The notes under the pieces were generated by a model that saw nothing but the letters and a program-made list of their open reading frames with translations, was not told the origin of the DNA and did no database searches. This document shows positions 1-56,017 of a DNA stretch of 64,000 bases, in pieces. The stretch's first letter is position 1. Each line of letters starts with the position of its first letter. Where the stretch lies: contig JACPYM010000123.1 in NCBI GenBank assembly GCA_016196035.1, positions 62,001-126,000 on the forward strand, in the 5' to 3' direction. The DNA is from Acidobacteriota bacterium (GTDB taxonomy: Bacteria > Acidobacteriota > Blastocatellia > RBC074). Made by a program: the position numbers and the translations under genes.

Positions 1-3000
1 CTCTCGACCCGATTCCCGAAGTCCGGTCATCACCACGTGCCCGGCAGGCCGGGTTTCCAAGCTTTCGAGCGCCGCCGTGTTTCGCTCAATTGCGGCGGCA
101 ACAATTCGCTCGCCCATTGTTGGCGCACCGCTCGCGCGTGTTGATGTGGTTGCGGGGATTCGTTGGGCTAAGCTCGTGGTGAGACGTTCAAAGAAGTCAT
201 CAAAGGGGAAGATGTTGCCATTTGTTTGGGGCACAAAAATTTCAGCCCCGCTGCCGACGTTGATTCCGCGCAGGCCGTCGAATACTTGGTCTCCGGCGCT
301 GACCGGGCCGCCAAACAGCCTCCGGGTAAAGCGATTGGCAGAATTGAATTGATCTTGGAGTTGCTGAGTTTCGCGCAGTTGCTTGACCAAGCGGCTGTTG
401 GTTTGGCCGGTGGACTCTGCGTAGGCGGCGAGCAGTTCTTTGGCCTGTTCGTTGCGGATCGTGGTGAGCATGTTGTTTTTGAATTGGCCTTTGCCATACA
501 ACGATTCGCCAAGTTGTTTAATCTGCTCGAACACAGCCTTACCTGACTTGCCATCCACGCTGACATCGTATTCGTCTTTGACGGTTTTTTTGAACTTGCG
601 AAAGTCCTTGCCGCCAAAATAGTTAAAAAGCAGCGCACCACCGACCAGTCCACCCGCCACAATCGCCGTGATTGGATTGCTGAACAGCGCCGGCAAGGCC
701 GACCCGAACGCGCCACCAAAGATGCCCGCGCCCGCCGCCGTGCCGCCCAGCGCGCCCGCCAGCACACCAGCGCCCAACGTCCCGCCGAGGCCACCAAGCA
801 GTTGACCAATCTGTGAACTGCCGCCTGCCTTTTGGCCCAACAGTCCGCCGCCCAACAATGCACCGGCTGCGCCCAGTCCGCCCACTGCCGAACCAGCCGC
901 CGCCACGCCGCCACCTAACTGCGGGATCGCTACGCCAGGTATCTTCGGTAAGTCGCCCAATGCGCTTGTGGCCGTCCCCGCATAACTGCCAAATCCACTG
1001 CGGCCAAATAATCTACCCAAGGCGGGAATGCGTTGCAGGATGCCGCGAATGTTGAAGCCACCATTGCTTACTGCACTGCCACCACTGCCCGCACCCGGAA
1101 TTGGTGCGCCAGAATAGGAAGGGGTCAGAAACCCGCCGTATCCGCCACCGCTGCCAGTCAAAAAATTGGAGGCTGAGTTCAAAAGCCCGCCGCCCGTTGT
1201 GCCAGTTGGCGAGGTGGTGCCGGTGGACGTGGCTTTTGGGTTAAAGAGATTGCGCAAAACCTTGATCAATTCAGACGTGAGCAAGTCCGCTGCCAACCGC
1301 TTCAGCAATTTGCCGAACGAGAGGGAAGCGCCCGCAAAGCCGTCGTCAAAGCCTTGTCGGATCGTGTCGCGCAGGCCACCACCAAGCCCCTCAAAGAAAT
1401 CGCCCGTGGTAAATTCGCTGCCCAGTCCTTTGGCGAACCGGCCAGTGTTGTTGAGTTCTTTGCCAAGGGTTTTGAGTTGCTCGATCTCAACATCCAAGTT
1501 TGCTAGTCCGATTTCTTTGGTGAGCGGGGCTTTGCACAAAAAGTCCCGTTTGCACAAAAAGTCGAGTGATTGCGTAGAAGCGCGCGCAAATCCAAATGAC
1601 TTATCGCCGCTTTTTTTCAACCTGCACAAAAAGTCCGTCATTTTTAGAGGTTTTTGTGCAAAGCCGGTGAGCGGGTCGAGTTGTGTGGCGCGCACCAGTT
1701 CCTTTTGGGCTTGGTAGGCTTCGATCAGTTTGTCGCGATATTTCGTTTGCACGCCCAAGAGTTCGCGGCGACCTTGCGTCTCACTCACGACGCCTTGTGT
1801 GGTGCGCGCTTGTACCTGCTCCTCGTCACGACGCAATTGTGCCTGCAACAATTCCGCTGCCGCACCTCGTTGCCGCAATCCAGCTAAGGGGTCTGGAACT
1901 TCACCCAGTTTTAACTCTGGCGGCTTACTGGCCAACTCTTTGAAGTAGTCAAGATTGATGATGGGCTTGAGTAGCTTCTCGCGTTCGTGAGCGCGCAGAC
2001 GCTCAATCTCAAGCAAGTCGCGCTGCTTGATGGTTTGCTCAGTCAGCAGGTCGTTCAGCTTTTCTTCCAGCTTCAACCGTTCGGGAGTCTCTTTCCTGAT
2101 CAGGGCAATCTGTTTTCGGGTTTCTTCCGCCAGGACTTTCTGGCTGGCGATTTCAGCCTCAACGCTGGCTGTCTTGATGGCGGCACGCTGCTGAATGTAC
2201 TCGTACTCGGAAGTCAACCCTTCTTTGTGTGATTCATCCAGTAAATCTTGCTGGCGTTTGTATTGGTCTTCGAGCAACTTTAGTTCATTGTCACGTTCGG
2301 AGCGCAACAACGAGAGACGGGCTTCCGCCAGTTGCTGGGCCGCGTGCAATGCGCTCTTACTGGCCGATGGACGCGCTGGCGTATGCCCGCTCAGCGTGGC
2401 GGGCTTACCGGTGCGCGGGTCTACTTCCACCGCATTCCCAGCATCAAACACGCGCGCCTTGTAGGCACGTAAATCTTCCAGATTGCGTGAATTGATAAAA
2501 CCCTGATCAAGCCGGTTCACTTGAAAGGCGTTGTTTTGCCGCAGACTGTCCAACGCCTTTTGTATGCCGGGAACTTCCTGGCCCAACAACTTTAACGGCT
2601 CATTGATGAGGTTGAGCACGGCGATCCCGATACCATCCATTGCCGCCGCGCCCGCCGCGCCCAATAGTTCAAACCAGTCGCGCAACTCAGTCACCGCTGA
2701 CGTGGTGTCTTGCAAAGTAATTTTTATTTCCTGCAACAACCGTTCTTTACTGGGCAGGATGTCAAGCGAACCGCCGAACCCGACCACCGAATCAATCAAC
2801 TGATCAAACTCGCCGACAATCTCAGTCAATAACTTCTTCTGCTCGCCAATCTCTTTGAGTTGGCGAATGAAACCGTCTGCCGCGTCAAAAAGCCGACCGG
2901 AAATAAGCGTGGCGATGTCATCAATAAAGGCCAACAGCGGTTTCAGTTTGGCGTCAATGTCCAGCGCTTTCGGGTCGAACAGCGATTTGGTCAACTTGTC

Positions 3001-3918
3001 TAAGCGCTGCGTAAATCCGGTAGTCAGCTTTTCCGATGCGCCCCCGCCCAGCACTTCAACTGCTTCCTGAAAGTTCGAGGTCACGCCATCAAACGTCTTC
3101 GCTACTTCCGCGCCCGATGCCCGAAAAACCGCTAGACGTTTATTGAGTTCGTCAGCCAGCTTGTTCTGCTCGCGCCAGCTCTTGACCATTGGATTGGTCA
3201 GGCCCAACGCCTTGGCCACACGCGCATTCTGGTCAATATCACCGGAAAGGATGGCGCGCGTTTCCTGCCCAATCTCGCGCAAGGGCACGCCCAACGCGCT
3301 GGCCGCTTGCGTCAGGTCAATCGTGATCTGGCGAATTTGATCGAGGTTGAGCCCAGCAGACAGACCTGGCCCTAAACTGGTTTGAAAGCCTTCGATGAGT
3401 TGGCGTGTGGCGGCGGCCGTCTCAAGACCCGCGATGCGCAACTTTTTGATTTGGTCATTCGCCAGCGGGATGGCTGCTTTCAAGGCGTCTGCGCCCAAGA
3501 GCTTTTGCCCAGATGCGTTTTTAAGTTCGCCCAGCGTGGCAATCAGCGAGGCGATGCCCAGCTTTGAAGTTTGAATCGTGGCGTTGAATTCGACACCTTG
3601 CTTGAGGAAGGCGGCAAACAGGCCCGCGCCACCGGCCAGCGCAGCCAACGCGGCCAATTGAACGTAGAGCGATTTGACCAGCCCCGTGAGTTTTCCAACT
3701 ATCCCGTCTGCGCCTTTGAAGAAGCTGCCAAAGCTGGCAGCAGATGCAGCCGGGCCTTTCTGGAATCGGCCTAGTTCGTCACGTAATCGTTCAACTTGTT
3801 TTTGGGATTCTTTGCCACGCTCAAGGATTTCCTTGAAGGCTGAGACGACGCGCTTCGCGCCAGCGGCAAAATTGCTGTCATCCAAGGCATACCCAACAAC
3901 GGCGTTATCTACAAACAT
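1..3918 (-). CDS. Phage tail tape measure protein (C-terminus beyond left edge)
   Basis: The minus frame is open from an ATG at 3918 to the window edge: 1306 codons, no stop in any line checked. AGAGG lies 5-10 bases upstream of the ATG. A hydrophobic stretch sits at residues 86-105, a long charged coiled-coil region at about 520-690, a Gly/Ala/Ser-rich low-complexity part at about 870-1080, a second hydrophobic stretch at 1080-1103, and a globular end with the motif NGNIFPFDDFF near 1230-1245. This order of helical body, hydrophobic segments and Gly-rich tail is typical of siphovirus tape measure proteins, which set tail length and pass through the membrane during DNA entry. Residues 753-796 are encoded by an inserted repeat element. 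It lies 115 bp downstream of a small coiled-coil gene that could be an assembly chaperone. Family call is by architecture only. Confidence 0.75.
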   Translation of the reverse strand, partial: MFVDNAVVGYALDDSNFAAGAKRVVSAFKEILERGKESQKQVERLRDELGRFQKGPAASAASFGSFFKGADGIVGKLTGLVKSLYVQLAALAALAGGAGLFAAFLKQGVEFNATIQTSKLGIASLIATLGELKNASGQKLLGADALKAAIPLANDQIKKLRIAGLETAAATRQLIEGFQTSLGPGLSAGLNLDQIRQITIDLTQAASALGVPLREIGQETRAILSGDIDQNARVAKALGLTNPMVKSWREQNKLADELNKRLAVFRASGAEVAKTFDGVTSNFQEAVEVLGGGASEKLTTGFTQRLDKLTKSLFDPKALDIDAKLKPLLAFIDDIATLISGRLFDAADGFIRQLKEIGEQKKLLTEIVGEFDQLIDSVVGFGGSLDILPSKERLLQEIKITLQDTTSAVTELRDWFELLGAAGAAAMDGIGIAVLNLINEPLKLLGQEVPGIQKALDSLRQNNAFQVNRLDQGFINSRNLEDLRAYKARVFDAGNAVEVDPRTGKPATLSGHTPARPSASKSALHAAQQLAEARLSLLRSERDNELKLLEDQYKRQQDLLDESHKEGLTSEYEYIQQRAAIKTASVEAEIASQKVLAEETRKQIALIRKETPERLKLEEKLNDLLTEQTIKQRDLLEIERLRAHEREKLLKPIINLDYFKELASKPPELKLGEVPDPLAGLRQRGAAAELLQAQLRRDEEQVQARTTQGVVSETQGRRELLGVQTKYRDKLIEAYQAQKELVRATQLDPLTGFAQKPLKMTDFLCRLKKSGDKSFGFARASTQSLDFLCKRDFLCKAPLTKEIGLANLDVEIEQLKTLGKELNNTGRFAKGLGSEFTTGDFFEGLGGGLRDTIRQGFDDGFAGASLSFGKLLKRLAADLLTSELIKVLRNLFNPKATSTGTTSPTGTTGGGLLNSASNFLTGSGGGYGGFLTPSYSGAPIPGAGSGGSAVSNGGFNIRGILQRIPALGRLFGRSGFGSYAGTATSALGDLPKIPGVAIPQLGGGVAAAGSAVGGLGAAGALLGGGLLGQKAGGSSQIGQLLGGLGGTLGAGVLAGALGGTAAGAGIFGGAFGSALPALFSNPITAIVAGGLVGGALLFNYFGGKDFRKFKKTVKDEYDVSVDGKSGKAVFEQIKQLGESLYGKGQFKNNMLTTIRNEQAKELLAAYAESTGQTNSRLVKQLRETQQLQDQFNSANRFTRRLFGGPVSAGDQVFDGLRGINVGSGAEIFVPQTNGNIFPFDDFFERLTTSLAQRIPATTSTRASGAPTMGERIVAAAIERNTAALESLETRPAGHVVMTGLRESGRE
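1531..1662. repeat. In-frame repeat/palindrome element inside the tape measure gene
   Basis: The 15-mer TTTGCACAAAAAGTC occurs exactly at 1531-1545 and 1549-1563. A third copy sharing 13 bases (TGCACAAAAAGTC) is at 1623-1635, and its inverted partner TTTTTGTGCAAA is at 1651-1662, giving a 10-bp hairpin stem with an 18-nt loop. The reading frame stays open through all copies, which appear in the protein as repeated DFLCK/DFLCR. This resembles selfish palindromic elements that insert in frame into genes, such as the Rickettsia palindromic elements; whether it is a family in this genome cannot be seen from one copy. Confidence 0.6.
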
Positions 3919-4756: not shown

Positions 4757-5236
4757 TTAAAACGGTATTTCGTCATCACCCAGGCTTGGCGGTGCTTGCG
4801 CTTTCAACGCAGCACGGGCCGCAGCTTTGTTCGCGCCAGCATTGCCGGTCTTCGTCTGCGATGGTGCCGCTGTTTCCGTCTGGCTTCGCTCGTCTCCGCC
4901 TTCGCCCTTGGCTCCCAAGAATTGGATGTCTGAGGCCGTCACCTCCAAAGCTGTGCGGCGGTTGCCATCACGGTCCGTATATTCAGTCTGGCGCAGCCGG
5001 CCTTCGACGTAGACCTGTTTGCCTTTTGAAAGGTACTCGTTGGCAATCTCAGCTTGCCGCCGCCAGACGGTGATCTTGAACCAGGTCGTTAAATCCTGGA
5101 ACTCGCCGGTGACGTCTTTGCGCCGTTCTGTTGTTGCAACTGAGAAATTGCAGACGGCTTCGCCGCTTGGCGTGTAGCGGATTTCGGGGTCGCGGCCCAA
5201 ATATCCGACGATGATGATTTTGTTGAAGCTTGCCAT
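4757..5236 (-). CDS. ssb: Single-stranded DNA-binding protein
   Basis: A 159-aa SSB. The N-terminal OB-fold covers about residues 1-110, with the family signatures NKIIIVGYLGRDPEIRYTPS and TTWFKITVWRRQAE. A low-complexity Ala/Thr/Gln linker follows, and the protein ends in the acidic tip DDEIPF that recruits replication and repair proteins. I chose the ATG at 5236 because GGAG lies 8-12 bases upstream and the protein then begins at the usual SSB start; the longer frame from 5293 would begin inside the octamer array. It lies just left of that array and the primase-helicase gene, so it probably serves replication of the element. A 7-bp inverted repeat (4557-4563/4581-4587) lies downstream without a T-run; 4526-4756 is otherwise featureless. 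Confidence 0.95.
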   Translation of the reverse strand: MASFNKIIIVGYLGRDPEIRYTPSGEAVCNFSVATTERRKDVTGEFQDLTTWFKITVWRRQAEIANEYLSKGKQVYVEGRLRQTEYTDRDGNRRTALEVTASDIQFLGAKGEGGDERSQTETAAPSQTKTGNAGANKAAARAALKAQAPPSLGDDEIPF

Positions 5237-5635
5237 GATGATTTCTCCTTTTTGCTCAATGTCGGGAATGTCGGGTTTTATCCACGAGAGCAACCCGGAG
5301 CATTTCGCATTGCTGAATTCATTCGACTTTCGTTCTCCAACCGCTCCATTTGCCCGCCCAATGTCGGGAAATGTCGGGTTTTGATGTCGGGTTTTTGCGC
5401 GGCTTTTGAAAAACCCGACATCAGAAAAGCCTGGAAAACTCTCTGAGCCTCTCTAGTGCGGATAAAACCCGACATTCCCGACATTGGGCACTTAACCCAT
5501 TGATTCCACTGGGCAAGTTGATGTCGAAAAACCCGACATCGGCCCAAAAAACCCGACATCAAAACCCGACATTAGCACCCGCAATTCGCCCTCGATGTCG
5601 GGAATGTCGGGAATGTCGGGTTTTCTCCACAAGAC
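5237..5635. repeat. Array of 14 ATGTCGGG octamers: candidate replication origin (iterons)
   Basis: Exact ATGTCGGG starts at 5259, 5268, 5361, 5371, 5384, 5595, 5604 and 5613 on the plus strand. The complement CCCGACAT starts at 5414, 5468, 5477, 5532, 5552 and 5565. Fourteen exact 8-mers in about 360 bp is far beyond chance for a random sequence. Several copies are phased at 9 bp as direct doublets or triplets (5259/5268, 5468/5477, 5595/5604/5613), and a decayed copy is at 5521. The array fills the gap between the primase-helicase and ssb genes of a mobile element. Clustered short iterons next to the replication protein are the usual layout of origins in plasmids and P4-like elements. An origin is inferred, not shown. 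Confidence 0.7.
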
Positions 5636-8455
5636 CTACCCTCCCCATTTTTTCGCGCTCAGGTGAATGACCGACTGAGACCGGTCGCCGATCACCCGGC
5701 GCACCTTCAGCGTGTCGCGTTTTTCATCCACCGAAGCCAGCAATCCGGCTTCCTTCAAACGCTTCCACAGCGTCTGCGCTGTGATCGTCAGCCCCTCACC
5801 ATTGCCGCCCATCGCCTGCGCCAGTCTGAACGCAGCATCGGGTTGGAGGTAAAGATTGTCACCCTCCAACCAACCGATCCGGTCGCCTTGCGCTTCGCCG
5901 CTACGCCAGCCCCAGGCTTCCCGATCTTCCGGTTGCCCACCGTCCAGCGCCGTCAGATGCGCGCGTCCGCTGGCAAGCGCCGCTTGCAACAACTCGACAA
6001 AGCGCGTGGCCGGATTCTCACTCGCGCAAAAGCCCTCTTGCGCACGGCCCAGCGTATCCAGCGCGGTCATCACGGCCTCGCGCAAACCGGTAATCTCTTC
6101 GCCGTCCAGCGCGCCGCATTCCGCCACGAATTCAAGCCACACATTCCAGGCCCTTTGCAGATAGGCCAGCGTCGTAGCTGAGCGTTTGTGCGCGTTCACG
6201 CCGCTGCTCAACCATTCTTCGCGCAGTTGGCCGATGTGGCCCGAAGCCCCTGCACGCAGCTTGCCGATGCGTGCATCCGTCGCCAGCCACCGCAAGAAGG
6301 CGCTCATGGCTTCGGCGTACAGTCCCGCGCGGGCCTGGTGTTGGCATTTGGTCAACTGTTCCCACCTCACCGCATCTTTCTCGACTTGCAGGATTGCCAG
6401 CCGCGCCCGCAACGATTGGCCGCGCGGCAAATCCTCGCCCGTGCCGACTGCTAGGCCGCGCGGCGGTTTGGGCGGCCGCACGCTACCATCCGTCCGGCAA
6501 CGCGCCCGACCCGAATGGTTGCCCTGCGCGCGAAAAACGCGGTCAGCCGCGACGTGCAACCGGGCTTGCTCTTGCGCCGAACCGAGCGGGCAAAAGTCGT
6601 CAATCACCAACACGCAATCCTTCGCGGTGTGGGCAATAGCTTCCAGCGCATTGGCCGAAGAAGACCACGCGGCAGGCAGCGTCTTGGCGTTGAAGCCGCT
6701 GCCAAAAAACGCTTGCACCAACGCCGCCAGTTCGCTTTTGCCACTACCCGTGTAGCCGACCAGGAACAGCGAGAAATCCGGGTCTGTGAGCACCGCCGCG
6801 AACGCTCCGCCCAACAGCGATAACGTCACAACTTCCGGCGCGACTTGCGGCAAATCGAACGCCACCGCGCGCACAACCTCACGCAACCGCGCGCCTGTTG
6901 GCGGCGGGGGCAAGCGGCAAAGTGCGAATTGTGGCGACAACTCAACTTCAGCTTCGATCAACCCTTCGGAGCTGATGGCACCGCCCGCGTGGTAATAGCG
7001 CCAACCCTCGCCGTCGTCGCGCCAACCCGTGTGCGCAATCACACGCCGTGCCTGAATGCCAGCCGACAGCAACCGAATCGCCACGCGCGTATGCTCGCCC
7101 TTCGCCGGATAGACCACGGCCCGCGCTCCCAGAATCGTGTTGAGCCAGCGCAGCGAATCGAATTCCTCTGCGTTGACCATGCCTTTGCGCGGCTGGCCGT
7201 CTCCCGCCAGATTGGCAGTGATTTCGTAAACGCGGTTGCTCTCCGTGCCATCGTCGCGCTCGATGTCCGCCGTAATCGTGGCATTGAAATTCGTGAGCAG
7301 CACTTCCGTTTTGTTGTCGTTACGGCTGTCTCTGTCGAAGACCGGCTTGAGCCAGATCAACCCACGCCCATTGGCTTTGTATGGACAATCGCCCGCATCG
7401 TCAGCAACGGCTTCTGCTTCAGTGGTGGGTTCGGAACTGATGATCGCCTGCTGTTTTGCTTTCGGCTGGCTCTTCAGTTTGGCTGGCTCGCCGTAGCCCT
7501 CCGCCGCCAGCGCCTTCGCTGCCGCCTGGAAATCGCCACCGTATTCAAGCAGCGCGCAGACTGCGAAAGGCGAATAGGCGCGGTCAAACTCAAACGGCGC
7601 GGCATTGGTGCTGAACAGGTAGAGGTGGCCATCATTAAATAGTGTGGCGCTTGGTCTGGCGCCGCCTGGCCGCTGCCAGCGTTCGCCCGCGCTGCTCTTG
7701 CCGCGTTGCCGCCAACCATGCTTTTCAAGCAAGGCGCGCACATCACCACGTTGATTGAAGTCCTCGCCGGGTTTCAATCCTTTCGCCTTCGGCTGGAGTT
7801 CAGGCGCGACGTGCTGCGACGGTTTGACGTATTGATTGAATGAGCGGGCACAACTCAACAGGATGTCGCGTTCCTGCGGCGTAATCATCGGGATCGCTTT
7901 CAAATCGCCGTTGATTAACTTGTAGGGCTTACCAGATGAATGGCAGGCCACAGGACTGCCCGCCGTCACCACATAACCGCCCTCGCCGCGCGTCTCGATC
8001 AGGGTTTCGATTTTCCAGTGCTTAAAGTTGCGCTTGATGCTGCCTTTGACATCCGACGCGATTTCAACTTCATGAGTCGCAAGTTTCTGATTGGCTCCAA
8101 TCGTCTCGCAACGATAGAAGACGTGCAACCCGCCTGCTGGCGTCTCGACCTGTGGTAACCGGCCGAGCAAGCCGGGCGCAGCAGCATCAACCAATTCGCG
8201 CCATTCGGGGACAAGTTCTGGCGCATCGTGGTCCAGGATTTCCAGGCCCCCGCTGACTGCGCCACCGATGATCGCAATGCCCGGACGCTGGCCGTTGCCA
8301 AAGGCTTTGCGCAGCTCAGCATCGTTGGCCTGGCGTCGCTCGAACTGTTTCCAAGTAGGGAGCGCAGGCGCTTTCGAACCGTCTGTCTTTATAGGAATGA
8401 GTGAGAGTCCGGCGTCGCGCAAACGCCGGACTCCTTCAAAAAGTGAGAGGCTCAT
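5636..8455 (-). CDS. Primase-polymerase / P-loop helicase-type replication protein
   Basis: A 939-aa protein. Residues 1-210 resemble bifunctional primase-polymerase (Prim-Pol) domains: the acidic motif ILDHD near 72-77, GGLHVFYR near 108-115, and ETRGEGGYVV near 154-163. After a variable middle region, a P-loop ATPase module begins near 545 with Walker A GYTGSGKS at about 567-574 and Walker B CVLVIDDF at about 614-621, followed by an Arg-rich segment as in DUF927-type helicase domains of phages and integrative elements. The C-terminus has a likely winged-helix region (SLTITAQTLWKRLKE-like). The ATG at 8455 has GAGGAGG upstream and overlaps the previous stop as ATGA, so translation is coupled. 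It probably primes and unwinds at the adjacent octamer array. Confidence 0.85.
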   Translation of the reverse strand: MSLSLFEGVRRLRDAGLSLIPIKTDGSKAPALPTWKQFERRQANDAELRKAFGNGQRPGIAIIGGAVSGGLEILDHDAPELVPEWRELVDAAAPGLLGRLPQVETPAGGLHVFYRCETIGANQKLATHEVEIASDVKGSIKRNFKHWKIETLIETRGEGGYVVTAGSPVACHSSGKPYKLINGDLKAIPMITPQERDILLSCARSFNQYVKPSQHVAPELQPKAKGLKPGEDFNQRGDVRALLEKHGWRQRGKSSAGERWQRPGGARPSATLFNDGHLYLFSTNAAPFEFDRAYSPFAVCALLEYGGDFQAAAKALAAEGYGEPAKLKSQPKAKQQAIISSEPTTEAEAVADDAGDCPYKANGRGLIWLKPVFDRDSRNDNKTEVLLTNFNATITADIERDDGTESNRVYEITANLAGDGQPRKGMVNAEEFDSLRWLNTILGARAVVYPAKGEHTRVAIRLLSAGIQARRVIAHTGWRDDGEGWRYYHAGGAISSEGLIEAEVELSPQFALCRLPPPPTGARLREVVRAVAFDLPQVAPEVVTLSLLGGAFAAVLTDPDFSLFLVGYTGSGKSELAALVQAFFGSGFNAKTLPAAWSSSANALEAIAHTAKDCVLVIDDFCPLGSAQEQARLHVAADRVFRAQGNHSGRARCRTDGSVRPPKPPRGLAVGTGEDLPRGQSLRARLAILQVEKDAVRWEQLTKCQHQARAGLYAEAMSAFLRWLATDARIGKLRAGASGHIGQLREEWLSSGVNAHKRSATTLAYLQRAWNVWLEFVAECGALDGEEITGLREAVMTALDTLGRAQEGFCASENPATRFVELLQAALASGRAHLTALDGGQPEDREAWGWRSGEAQGDRIGWLEGDNLYLQPDAAFRLAQAMGGNGEGLTITAQTLWKRLKEAGLLASVDEKRDTLKVRRVIGDRSQSVIHLSAKKWGG

Positions 8456-8745
8456 GCTGCCCTCCTCTCGCCCGCCTCTGCGCGCAACACACAAAACACA
8501 TTTCGAATGCGCTCAAAACAGTGAGTGCAGAGCGGGCGAAAATCGTCGCCGCTGCTGGCCAGATTGCGCACGGCCAGCAGTATGACCGCACGCGCGGTAG
8601 AGTGGTGAGCACAGAAAAAATTGCGTTGGGTAGTTGGTAACGACTGAGACCGTGATACTATTGGCGCGTTCAAAAATTCGATAGATTCGGAATCGGCCCG
8701 TGAGTGTTGCAAGCGCTCGCGGGTCGCGTTGTTTTTGGAGTTCAC
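8452..8745 (-). CDS. Small putative zinc-binding protein of the replication cassette
   Basis: A 97-aa protein starting at GTG (8743-8745), with GGGAGGTGG just upstream. The start overlaps the excisionase-like stop as GTGA and its own stop overlaps the primase start as ATGA, which supports it as a real gene. Residues C45 with H47/H48, then C73 and C76 (PLCTHC) look like a small zinc ribbon or finger; C85 follows. I recognise no named family. Small zinc proteins next to phage primases are common and often bind DNA or the primase. A shorter overlapping frame at 8513-8761 lacks coupling signals and was not chosen. Confidence 0.6.
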   Translation of the reverse strand: MNSKNNATRERLQHSRADSESIEFLNAPIVSRSQSLPTTQRNFFCAHHSTARAVILLAVRNLASSGDDFRPLCTHCFERIRNVFCVLRAEAGERRAA

Positions 8746-9014
8746 TGGCCACCTCCCTCAATCCAATTTTTGACTGCCGCGCCCTTCAGGAGCACCTTGC
8801 GCCCCACGTAGTTGGCGACTAACGCACCAGATTTCAGTGCCCGAAAAATTGTCGCCGGACTCACTGTGTAGTGAGGCGAGGTGCGATCAGTCAGCTCGCG
8901 GATCGTGTAGTAGGTGTCTGGGTTGAGCGGTTGTTTGTCGGTGTTGATTTGCGGTTTGCGCACGCGAGTAATATTGCGCGTGCGCAATTTGTGTTGCGTA
9001 GAAAGCGCAGTCAT
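8742..9014 (-). CDS. Excisionase-like helix-turn-helix protein
   Basis: A 90-aa basic protein. Residues 36-86 (YYTIRELTDRTSPHYTVSP, then ATIFRALKSGALVANYVGRK) match the winged helix of excisionase/MerR-like HTH_17 proteins: a helix-turn-helix, a wing carrying GRKVLL, and a final helix KNWIE. The first 30 residues are basic and disordered. It is the first gene of the three-gene coupled cassette and lies near the integrase, so it may control excision, repress the cassette, or both. A 14-bp perfect palindrome sits 20 bp upstream of its ATG. Confidence 0.7.
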   Translation of the reverse strand: MTALSTQHKLRTRNITRVRKPQINTDKQPLNPDTYYTIRELTDRTSPHYTVSPATIFRALKSGALVANYVGRKVLLKGAAVKNWIEGGGQ

Positions 9015-9198: not shown

Positions 9199-10026
9199 CT
9201 AGGTTGGCTCAGACTCAATGGTAATGAGCGGATCAAGTGGAAACAGCCCTTCCCTCAATAGATAGCTGAAAAAAATCCCAGCCTCACTCACATGTCTCAC
9301 CTTTAGAAATTCACGTACTAAGGGCTCAAGCGTAGCCACCGGAATTGGCTTGATACTCTTCTGCTGTGCTTGTTTTGCGTAAATTCGCTCTGCCATTCTC
9401 TGGAGCGTGTTCATTTTTCCTTTAAGCATATTGGCCTCTGCAAATTTGGCGAGCGCGGCATTATCAAAACTGTTGTCATCCCTGAGCACAACCGACTCAT
9501 TGTGTTCGATCCCGAAGAAGGCAAATGCCTTCTGACCTGGAGCCACCTCCACAAGATGCTGTCCATATCTTTTTTTGGCTTTGGGCCGAACAACACTTTC
9601 AAGTTGCTCAATCACGAAGTAGATAAAAAAGGCGTGTGCTCGCTTCTGAATCTGTTTGCCTTCGAGTTTTAGCTTGGCCAGCTTTTTCAGTGTGGTTGTC
9701 TCGACCTCCAACTCATCGCTTTCCAAGATTCGCTGAATTGCTTGTAACTTTAACTTTGCACGCGCATCGCCACCTCCTGCCATCGCCATCAACTCGCTCA
9801 TGTCATCTATGATTTGGAGCAATGCTGGAAGTGCTGTTTTCGGTAAATAACCTAAAACGACTCCTGGGTAGGTAGCGAAAGCTGCCGTTAAGTTGCGAAA
9901 ATTCTGTCTTGCCCGAATACCACCTGGCTCAATTTTCAAACCAAAACAATCAACCAAATCCTGGATCAGTTGGGTCAGTTCACCAGAGTCGAAGGACATA
10001 CCTTCTGACTTGCTTTTCCTGCGCAT
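9199..10026 (-). CDS. Unknown protein between integrase and excisionase-like gene
   Basis: A 275-aa protein that I do not recognise. The ATG at 10026 is preferred because AGAGG precedes it at good spacing; the frame could extend to 10107 but that start lacks a ribosome site. The protein is mostly helical with many Lys, Leu and Glu residues (for example the Lys-rich stretch TTLKKLAKLKLEGKQIQKRA), and has no signal peptide or membrane segment. The C-terminal part (FLKVRHVSEAGIFFSYLLRE) looks globular. Its place between int and the regulatory cassette is where temperate elements often carry repressors, superinfection-exclusion or defence genes, but no motif decides between these. Confidence 0.6.
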   Translation of the reverse strand: MRRKSKSEGMSFDSGELTQLIQDLVDCFGLKIEPGGIRARQNFRNLTAAFATYPGVVLGYLPKTALPALLQIIDDMSELMAMAGGGDARAKLKLQAIQRILESDELEVETTTLKKLAKLKLEGKQIQKRAHAFFIYFVIEQLESVVRPKAKKRYGQHLVEVAPGQKAFAFFGIEHNESVVLRDDNSFDNAALAKFAEANMLKGKMNTLQRMAERIYAKQAQQKSIKPIPVATLEPLVREFLKVRHVSEAGIFFSYLLREGLFPLDPLITIESEPT

Positions 10027-10137
10027 ATTGGGCCTCTCTGTAAGCCTCTCTGGTTGTTTTCCGGCTTGCCCTGCTGCACCAGAGAAATTGCAGCCTACGC
10101 GGTTCATGAGGCCGCGCAGTGGGCAAGCCGAACTCGA

Positions 10138-11430: not shown

Positions 11431-11472
11431 CTCCTAAGCAGTAGGCCGCTGGTTCGAGTCCAGCCAAGCGCA
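11431..11472 (+). tRNA. 3' half of tRNA-Arg(CCU): element border / attachment site
   Basis: The anticodon loop CTCCTAA (11431-11437) is followed by the 3' anticodon stem GCAGT, a 5-nt variable loop, a perfect T arm (GCTGG/CCAGC around TTCGAGT) and an acceptor strand ending at 11472. The sequence left of 11431 (GCCAAGA) does not pair with GCAGT, and no matching 5' acceptor, D arm or anticodon stem is present. So only the 3' half remains, as expected for the copy displaced when an element integrates at the anticodon loop of a tRNA gene. The intact gene should lie beyond the left window edge. Confidence 0.8.
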
Positions 11473-11478
11473 TCCCTT

Positions 11479-55060: not shown

Positions 55061-56017
55061 CTACCATTCACTATAAGGAGGCCCAAACGAGCGTCCCAGC
55101 TTTTGCCCGAACAAAATCTGGCAGTAGGCAGCCACCAAACGCCTGCAAAAACGCGTGTATTCACCGGTTTTCTCCGAATTAAAACTCAAATAAGCACGTA
55201 AGTACAAAATCGCCAGCGAAAATGCTGCGTATGCCCAAGCCTCAAAGCGTTTACCGATCTTATAAAGATAGTACACTGAGTTCCTGCGCAATAAAAAGCT
55301 AACCATACTTGTCATATGGTATCCGTTCATTTGCTGCTCATGCACAATACTATCAATCGGCAAATATTGTACTTTCCAGCCCGCAGAGCGCGCACGATAA
55401 TCAAAATCAGCATCTTCGATATACATGAAGATTGCTTCATCAAACAAACCGACTGCGCGTAAACAGGAACCGCGCAAAAGCACGCATACGCCATTCAAGA
55501 CTTCCGCGTCCACTATGCTATCCTGCGACTTCATGAATGCTGCCGGCGCCAAACGGTAAGCAAACCAGTTCCATAAATTCCGCCAAAAACCCGGCGCGTA
55601 GAGCACTGTGTTTTGCACGTTATCGCTAGCCCGCAAATAAACTCGCGGCCCAGCCACGCCTATCTGTGGATGCAACTCACAATAGGCAACAACATCCCCG
55701 ATAAAATCGGGATTAAGCACGACAGTGTCAGGGTTGAGTATCAGGACATATTCGGCTTTTTGCGCTAATGCATAAGTGATACCCAAATTATTTCCGCCGG
55801 TATAGCCCAAATTTGCCCCCGACTGAATAAAAATCGCCTGCGGAAATTCAACCGTCACTTTAGTTTCAACATCGTCCGCCGACTTATTATCTACTACAAT
55901 TACTTGGTAATTTGAGTAGCTCAGCTTATTCAGGGAAGTTAGGCAGCGAACCACTTTCTTGGTGCAATTGTAAGCAAGCACAACAATTGCAACCAAAGGC
56001 TCGGCAGATTCACCCAT
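55061..56017 (-). CDS. GT2 glycosyltransferase, rhamnosyltransferase-like
   Basis: A 318-aa GT-A enzyme. Motifs: VAIVVLAYNCTKKVVRCLTS at the start, VIVVDNKSADD near 40-50, SGANLGYTGGNNLG near 66-79, and ILNPDTVVLNPDF near 93-105. NPD(T/V) and the GGNN loop are typical of rhamnosyl-type GT2 proteins. A hydrophobic segment lies near 265-285, suggesting membrane association. Its start overlaps the upstream GT2 stop by 8 bp. Confidence 0.9.
   Translation of the reverse strand: MGESAEPLVAIVVLAYNCTKKVVRCLTSLNKLSYSNYQVIVVDNKSADDVETKVTVEFPQAIFIQSGANLGYTGGNNLGITYALAQKAEYVLILNPDTVVLNPDFIGDVVAYCELHPQIGVAGPRVYLRASDNVQNTVLYAPGFWRNLWNWFAYRLAPAAFMKSQDSIVDAEVLNGVCVLLRGSCLRAVGLFDEAIFMYIEDADFDYRARSAGWKVQYLPIDSIVHEQQMNGYHMTSMVSFLLRRNSVYYLYKIGKRFEAWAYAAFSLAILYLRAYLSFNSEKTGEYTRFCRRLVAAYCQILFGQKLGRSFGPPYSEW

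Follow-up and report, generated by a model that had tools for sequence, protein, structure and literature searches.

The question raised by this locus is what purpose is served by a dense cluster of octamers lying between a primase-helicase gene and ssb in the window (the whole 64-kb stretch of DNA that was analyzed). Fourteen exact copies of ATGTCGGG were found within 362 bp, eight on the plus strand and six on the minus strand. This recount agrees with a preliminary description made from the sequence, as do the phasing of several copies at 9 bp (5259/5268, 5468/5477 and 5595/5604/5613) and the placement of the array between the end of the primase-helicase gene (stop, 5636) and the start of ssb (ATG, 5236). 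The array begins 16 bp past the stop codon of the primase-helicase gene and extends to 22 bp before ssb; it contains two groups of copies, and TTTT directly follows most of the octamers. The features concerned are as follows:

5259 to 5620, both strands: candidate iteron array; plus-strand copies start at 5259, 5268, 5361, 5371, 5384, 5595, 5604 and 5613, minus-strand copies at 5414, 5468, 5477, 5532, 5552 and 5565
5636 to 8494, minus strand: primase-helicase of 952 aa, with a Prim-Pol domain (aa 27–197), a DUF927-type helicase and a predicted C-terminal winged helix
5639 to 5947, minus strand: the predicted C-terminal winged-helix DNA-binding domain (about aa 850–952), proposed reader of the iterons
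4757 to 5236, minus strand: ssb, directly after the array

The cluster is unique in its genome. The window holds 16 exact copies of ATGTCGGG, relative to a mean of 1.75 and a maximum of 7 in shuffled sequences, and the two copies outside the array (57644 and 61153) are isolated. Across the 9.6-Mb genome, pairs of ATGTCGGG no more than 30 bp apart and the 17-bp tandem dimer of the octamer each occurred in the array only, and no cluster of the same octamer was found at a non-replication locus. There was no clear AT-rich minimum within the array (50-bp GC of 0.46–0.58), and no Rfam RNA family matched between 4500 and 12000.

The array is carried by an element integrated in a tRNA-Arg gene and reaching left of the window. 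A perfect 43-bp direct repeat marks its two ends, at contig positions 55304–55346 and 73431–73473, and its length is therefore 18.1 kb. On the minus strand the genes are ordered integrase, 302-aa protein, 90-aa protein, primase-helicase, array, SSB, 163-aa protein and a 1330-aa tape-measure-like protein, and the remaining features of the element include the following:

11431 to 11473: right copy of the 43-bp attachment repeat, matching exactly the tRNA-Arg(CCT) 3' end found left of the window at contig 55304–55346
10138 to 11346, minus strand: tyrosine integrase (PF00589, 4e-28)
9199 to 10107, minus strand: 302-aa protein with no assigned function
8742 to 9014, minus strand: putative HTH protein of 90 aa, with no match in Pfam
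1 to 3918, minus strand: tape-measure-like gene, 1330 aa, weakly matched to phrog_1533 (E 1.6e-4) and continuing left of the window (contig 61926–65918)

Also encoded are a terS-like (small-terminase-like) protein (phrog_2538, 1e-9) and an excisionase-like (xis-like) HTH protein. A syntenic element is present in an Acidobacteria MAG of the same family (G275), the identities being 47% for the integrase, 52% for the 90-aa protein, 43% for the terS-like protein and 49% for the xis-like protein. No match to the large terminase family phrog_2 was found anywhere in the genome, and on its gene content the element therefore looks like a phage satellite, not a whole prophage. The reading as a complete prophage was dropped in view of this result and of the 18.1-kb length. 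A satellite of 18 kb with no recognised large terminase would not usually carry a tape-measure-like gene.

The search for arrays beside homologous primase-helicase genes, which the preliminary description had proposed, was carried out on relatives of the helicase/winged-helix half of the protein from genomes and viral contigs. Scans of these with the single protein returned no relatives; they were found with an alignment as the query. For each locus the exact 8-mers were counted in the 500 bp that immediately follow the matched part of the helicase/winged-helix gene and compared with 200 dinucleotide shuffles. At 38 of 60 homologous loci, a set that includes a few near-duplicates (e.g., L050/L054 and L068/L078), an 8-mer cluster exceeded all 200 shuffles, each lineage having its own motif, whereas the same test gave none in the control regions inside the gene (0/58), 3 kb upstream (0/46) and more than 1.2 kb downstream (0/57). 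The position of the array is thus conserved. The other 22 homologs had no significant array, which weakens the rule of position but does not break it. According to their record labels, the array-bearing loci belong to Acidobacteria, Planctomycetota, Armatimonadetes, Chloroflexi, Actinobacteria, Meiothermus and Calidithermus (Deinococcota), and Delta-, Alpha- and Gammaproteobacteria, many of them being metagenome bins whose taxonomic labels may be wrong.

Many relatives carry the array within the helicase gene itself, in a C-terminal extension of its coding sequence, and the 9-bp unit therefore shows as a tripeptide repeat in the protein. Such C-terminal repeats, for example TGDTGDK and KPDIPDIPD, were seen in L029, L045, L057, L060, L062, L094 and others. 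Among homologs that share the N-terminal Prim-Pol domain only, an array was clear in L031, weak in L035 and absent from the rest. In L031 (G325), seven copies of CATTCCAA with 9-bp doublets lie at the 3' end of the gene for a Prim-Pol protein of 807 aa whose helicase part differs, and arrays of this kind thus seem to accompany another helicase type. In L086, seven copies of GTCTCGCA cluster ~3.8 kb downstream from the gene and none is present at the helicase 3' end; this distant cluster is possibly a displaced origin, comparable to ori1 of P4. A candidate in L082, eight copies of CCGTCTTC about 5.9 kb upstream of the helicase gene end, was rejected as a low-complexity Lys/Ala-rich coding repeat. 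No comparable array was found near the gene end of the distant DUF927-like helicases of three actinobacterial plasmids and one faecal phage scaffold. Linear plasmids of Rhodococcus encode proteins annotated as telomere-binding, that of pRHL2 (L104, 857–6235) having 1792 aa, with a helicase region ~27% identical to that of the window and no comparable iteron array adjoining.

The octamer itself differs by lineage, with motifs that include CCCGACA, CCGTCCA, TCCCAACA, CTGACCAA, TGGGGACA, ACCGTCC in L062 and others. CCCGACA, the motif of the window, also occurs in G275, L061, L073 and L100, and the motif of L055, the closest homolog by protein (66%), differs from it. The preliminary description did not recognise the motif from described origins; it is better regarded as one of many lineage-specific motifs. 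The spacing, in contrast to the motif, is kept. Same-strand pairs at exactly 9 bp are present in 36 of 40 arrays, and 24 of the 40 have a copy facing the doublet at 41–50 bp (null mean 8.7, maximum 16 in 500), when exact or one-mismatch copies are counted over a range that was picked after the arrays had been viewed. Several arrays are dyad-symmetric, such as that of L062, >9>47<12<27>12>45<9< (arrowheads give the orientation of copies and numbers the distances in bp), and several relatives have a spacer of 96–125 bp with lower GC. Motif similarity was correlated with winged-helix identity (Mantel r 0.36, with none of 2000 permutations as high), a relationship confounded by descent, which could produce it alone. 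The association of CCCGACA arrays with winged-helix residues Q65 and S99 (numbered in the 110-aa model) was noticed post hoc and carries the same confounding, and is only a lead.

A further comparison was provided by the annotated genome of P4, in which crr lies directly 3' of the alpha gene, as the window array does relative to its primase-helicase, and has type-1 octamers arranged >9>43<18<14>, twice. The layout of P4 ori1 is <10<11<22>43<10<. Both layouts resemble the part of the window array described here:

5468 to 5620: core unit of 153 bp, roughly dyad-symmetric and nearest the primase-helicase stop, with P4-like spacing when the two-mismatch copy is included
5521 to 5528, plus strand: degenerate iteron ATGTCGAA, with two mismatches, counted as a fifteenth copy

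In gene orientation the core reads >9>9>30<13<20<11(>)44<9<. Two modules can be picked out in it, one resembling crr (9, 43, then 20<, 31>) and one resembling ori1 (9, 44, then 11>, 31>, 44>); both need the degenerate copy, and the fit was noticed after P4 had been seen. Common to the two systems are octamers on both strands, a doublet at 9–10 bp, a facing copy at 43 bp, a primase and helicase in one protein and, for the window element on its gene content, an apparent satellite life style. They differ in the octamer (TGTTCACC in P4 versus ATGTCGGG in the window), in the distance of ~4–5 kb between P4 ori1 and crr, and in the protein: the Toprim_3, D5_N and Pox_D5 domains of alpha find no match in the Prim-Pol/DUF927 protein of the window. 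The spacing is thus common to proteins of different families, whose primase and helicase domains are not alike. A profile comparison of the window winged helix with the P4 alpha C-terminus, represented by a single sequence, gave no match. The likening to P4 alpha made earlier needs refinement as to the kind of helicase, which is that of SaPIbov1 Rep/Cch (DUF927) and not the Toprim/D5 kind of P4 alpha.

These comparisons also bear on what else the array could be. It is improbable that the octamers are operators for a regulator encoded by the element, acting in autoregulation of the replication operon or in control of ssb: the array does lie directly upstream of ssb, and plasmid iterons often double as autoregulation sites, but no close ssb homolog was detected beside the arrays of relatives, many of those arrays are inside the coding extension of the helicase gene, a scan of the window array for promoters and terminators found no site, and the spacing equals that of replication cis-elements of P4. 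We gave still less credence to a recombination or packaging site, bound by the integrase or the terS-like protein and located beside the helicase gene by accident. The element encodes both of these proteins, and repeats can occur in integrase arm sites and in pac sites; the attachment repeat, however, is 5.8 kb off and has no octamers, and arrays follow the helicase/winged-helix gene at loci whose available flanking DNA shows no close relative of this integrase or of the terS-like gene. A repeat without function, made by chance or by slippage, which could yield 9-bp tandem units, is very hard to reconcile with octamers that point both ways, dyad-symmetric arrays in relatives, a conserved position, spacing kept across diverged motifs and the absence of other clusters from the genome.

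We therefore return to an origin of replication and to the protein that might read it. The 952-aa protein, whose DUF927 match is above the family cut-off, has the composition of an AEP primase-helicase, namely a Prim-Pol domain fused to a P-loop helicase with a predicted C-terminal winged helix. An AlphaFold model of aa 367–952, built on 48 homologs, had a mean pLDDT of 93.5, and its best match among solved structures was SaPIbov1 Rep (8tch; Z 23.3, rmsd 5.5, 453 aligned), followed by SCCmec Cch (5dgk; Z 22.6, rmsd 6.5, 465 aligned) and then by MCM proteins near Z 15. The predicted fold is thus like that of SaPIbov1 Rep, at a sequence identity to the solved Reps of only 12–15%. The C-terminal 110 residues alone were predicted to be winged-helix-like (pLDDT 87). 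Two solved structures resembled them, each with Z 7.2: the C-terminal part of SaPIbov1 Rep (rmsd 3.2 over 85 aligned residues) and a protein that binds oriT (rmsd 2.5 over 78), a Z of 7 being only suggestive for a domain this small.

The C-terminal domain of SaPI Rep is reported to recognise iterons directly downstream of its own gene (PMC7581432, PMC6092414). The likeness of the window to SaPI/PICI systems, for which the iteron layout was taken from the literature, extends to a putative self-loading helicase with a C-terminal DNA-binding domain, to iterons immediately 3' of the initiator gene and to the small size of an integrated element that has int, xis-like and terS-like genes. Unlike in those systems, one protein combines the helicase with an AEP Prim-Pol domain, and ssb follows. 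PICI origins consist of an AT-rich region between two iteron sets, and PICIs have no phage structural genes, whereas the window element has its weakly matched tape-measure-like gene; induction and packaging by a helper phage are further PICI traits. Of the SCCmec helicases, Cch has a DUF927 domain and the fold predicted for the window protein. Cch2, which binds direct repeats located downstream of its own operon (PMC7581432), is of the Primase_Cterm/D5 kind, with only three 5-nt iterons and an A-family polymerase as partner in place of a Prim-Pol domain. The PrimPol-PV1 families (Kazlauskas 2018) and ORF904 of pRN1 likewise have an AEP primase fused to a helicase, with DUF927 in some. For such proteins a C-terminal winged helix is predicted to recognise the origin, and iterons are not mentioned in the main text of that study (Kazlauskas 2018). 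The pRN1 origin also lies downstream of the replication gene; it is a stem-loop and is stated not to be of the iteron type (PMC4234260).

We assign a probability of roughly 0.86 to the reading that the array is the iteron-type origin of the 18.1-kb satellite-like element and is read by the winged helix of its primase-helicase. This is, in essence, the origin recognised by the Prim-Pol/P-loop protein and resembling that of P4 that was first put forward, and the arrays of homologs, the P4 spacing and the SaPIbov1 Rep fold make it the best-supported reading. It is favored because the dense and unique array is directly 3' of the helicase gene; because arrays follow the winged helix at the 38 homologous loci and none appeared in the controls; because spacing is kept as the motif varies and is the same in crr and ori1, which are annotated replication cis-elements; because the helicase half is predicted to fold like SaPIbov1 Rep and Cch; and because motif similarity follows winged-helix similarity. 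Counting against it are the 22 homologs without a significant array, the lack of a clear AT-rich core in the window, unlike in PICI origins, and the lack of similarity between the winged helix and the P4 alpha C-terminus in the single-sequence profile comparison. By analogy to SaPI Rep and P4 (PMC7581432, PMC6092414, PMC4234260), we infer binding, double-ring loading, melting and priming in the following manner. The element would first excise, after which copies of the primase-helicase would bind the octamers via the C-terminal winged helix. Two head-to-head helicase rings, positioned by the 9-bp doublets and by the copies facing them ~43–46 bp away, would melt the DNA, the Prim-Pol domain of the same protein would make primers and SSB would coat the single strands.

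The P4/SaPI-type iteron origin is a kind already known; in the open-access literature searched there seems to be no description of the Prim-Pol–DUF927 version, of the phyla in which it occurs or of the motif-independent spacing. More tentatively, and with somewhat less than an even chance of being correct, the 9-bp doublet with a facing copy at ~43–46 bp may be a motif-independent rule for the origins of self-loading double-ring initiators, common to the unrelated families of P4 alpha and the SaPIbov1 Rep-like proteins, in which the octamer is free to switch with the winged helix. If true, this would make replicon specificities mutually exclusive and the recognition code readable, and the ~40 pairs of motif and winged helix are a ready data set on how initiators choose their origins. 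At this locus an unexplained repeat cluster becomes a predicted origin with a defined reader. A search rule is suggested, in which the helicase 3' end and the geometry of 9 and 43–46 bp would point to origins across phyla, in many satellites, phages and integrated elements that are uncharacterised, and the C-terminal tripeptide repeats could mark hidden origins in protein databases. The family of Prim-Pol–DUF927 helicases suggests that origins of this kind may be more widely spread.
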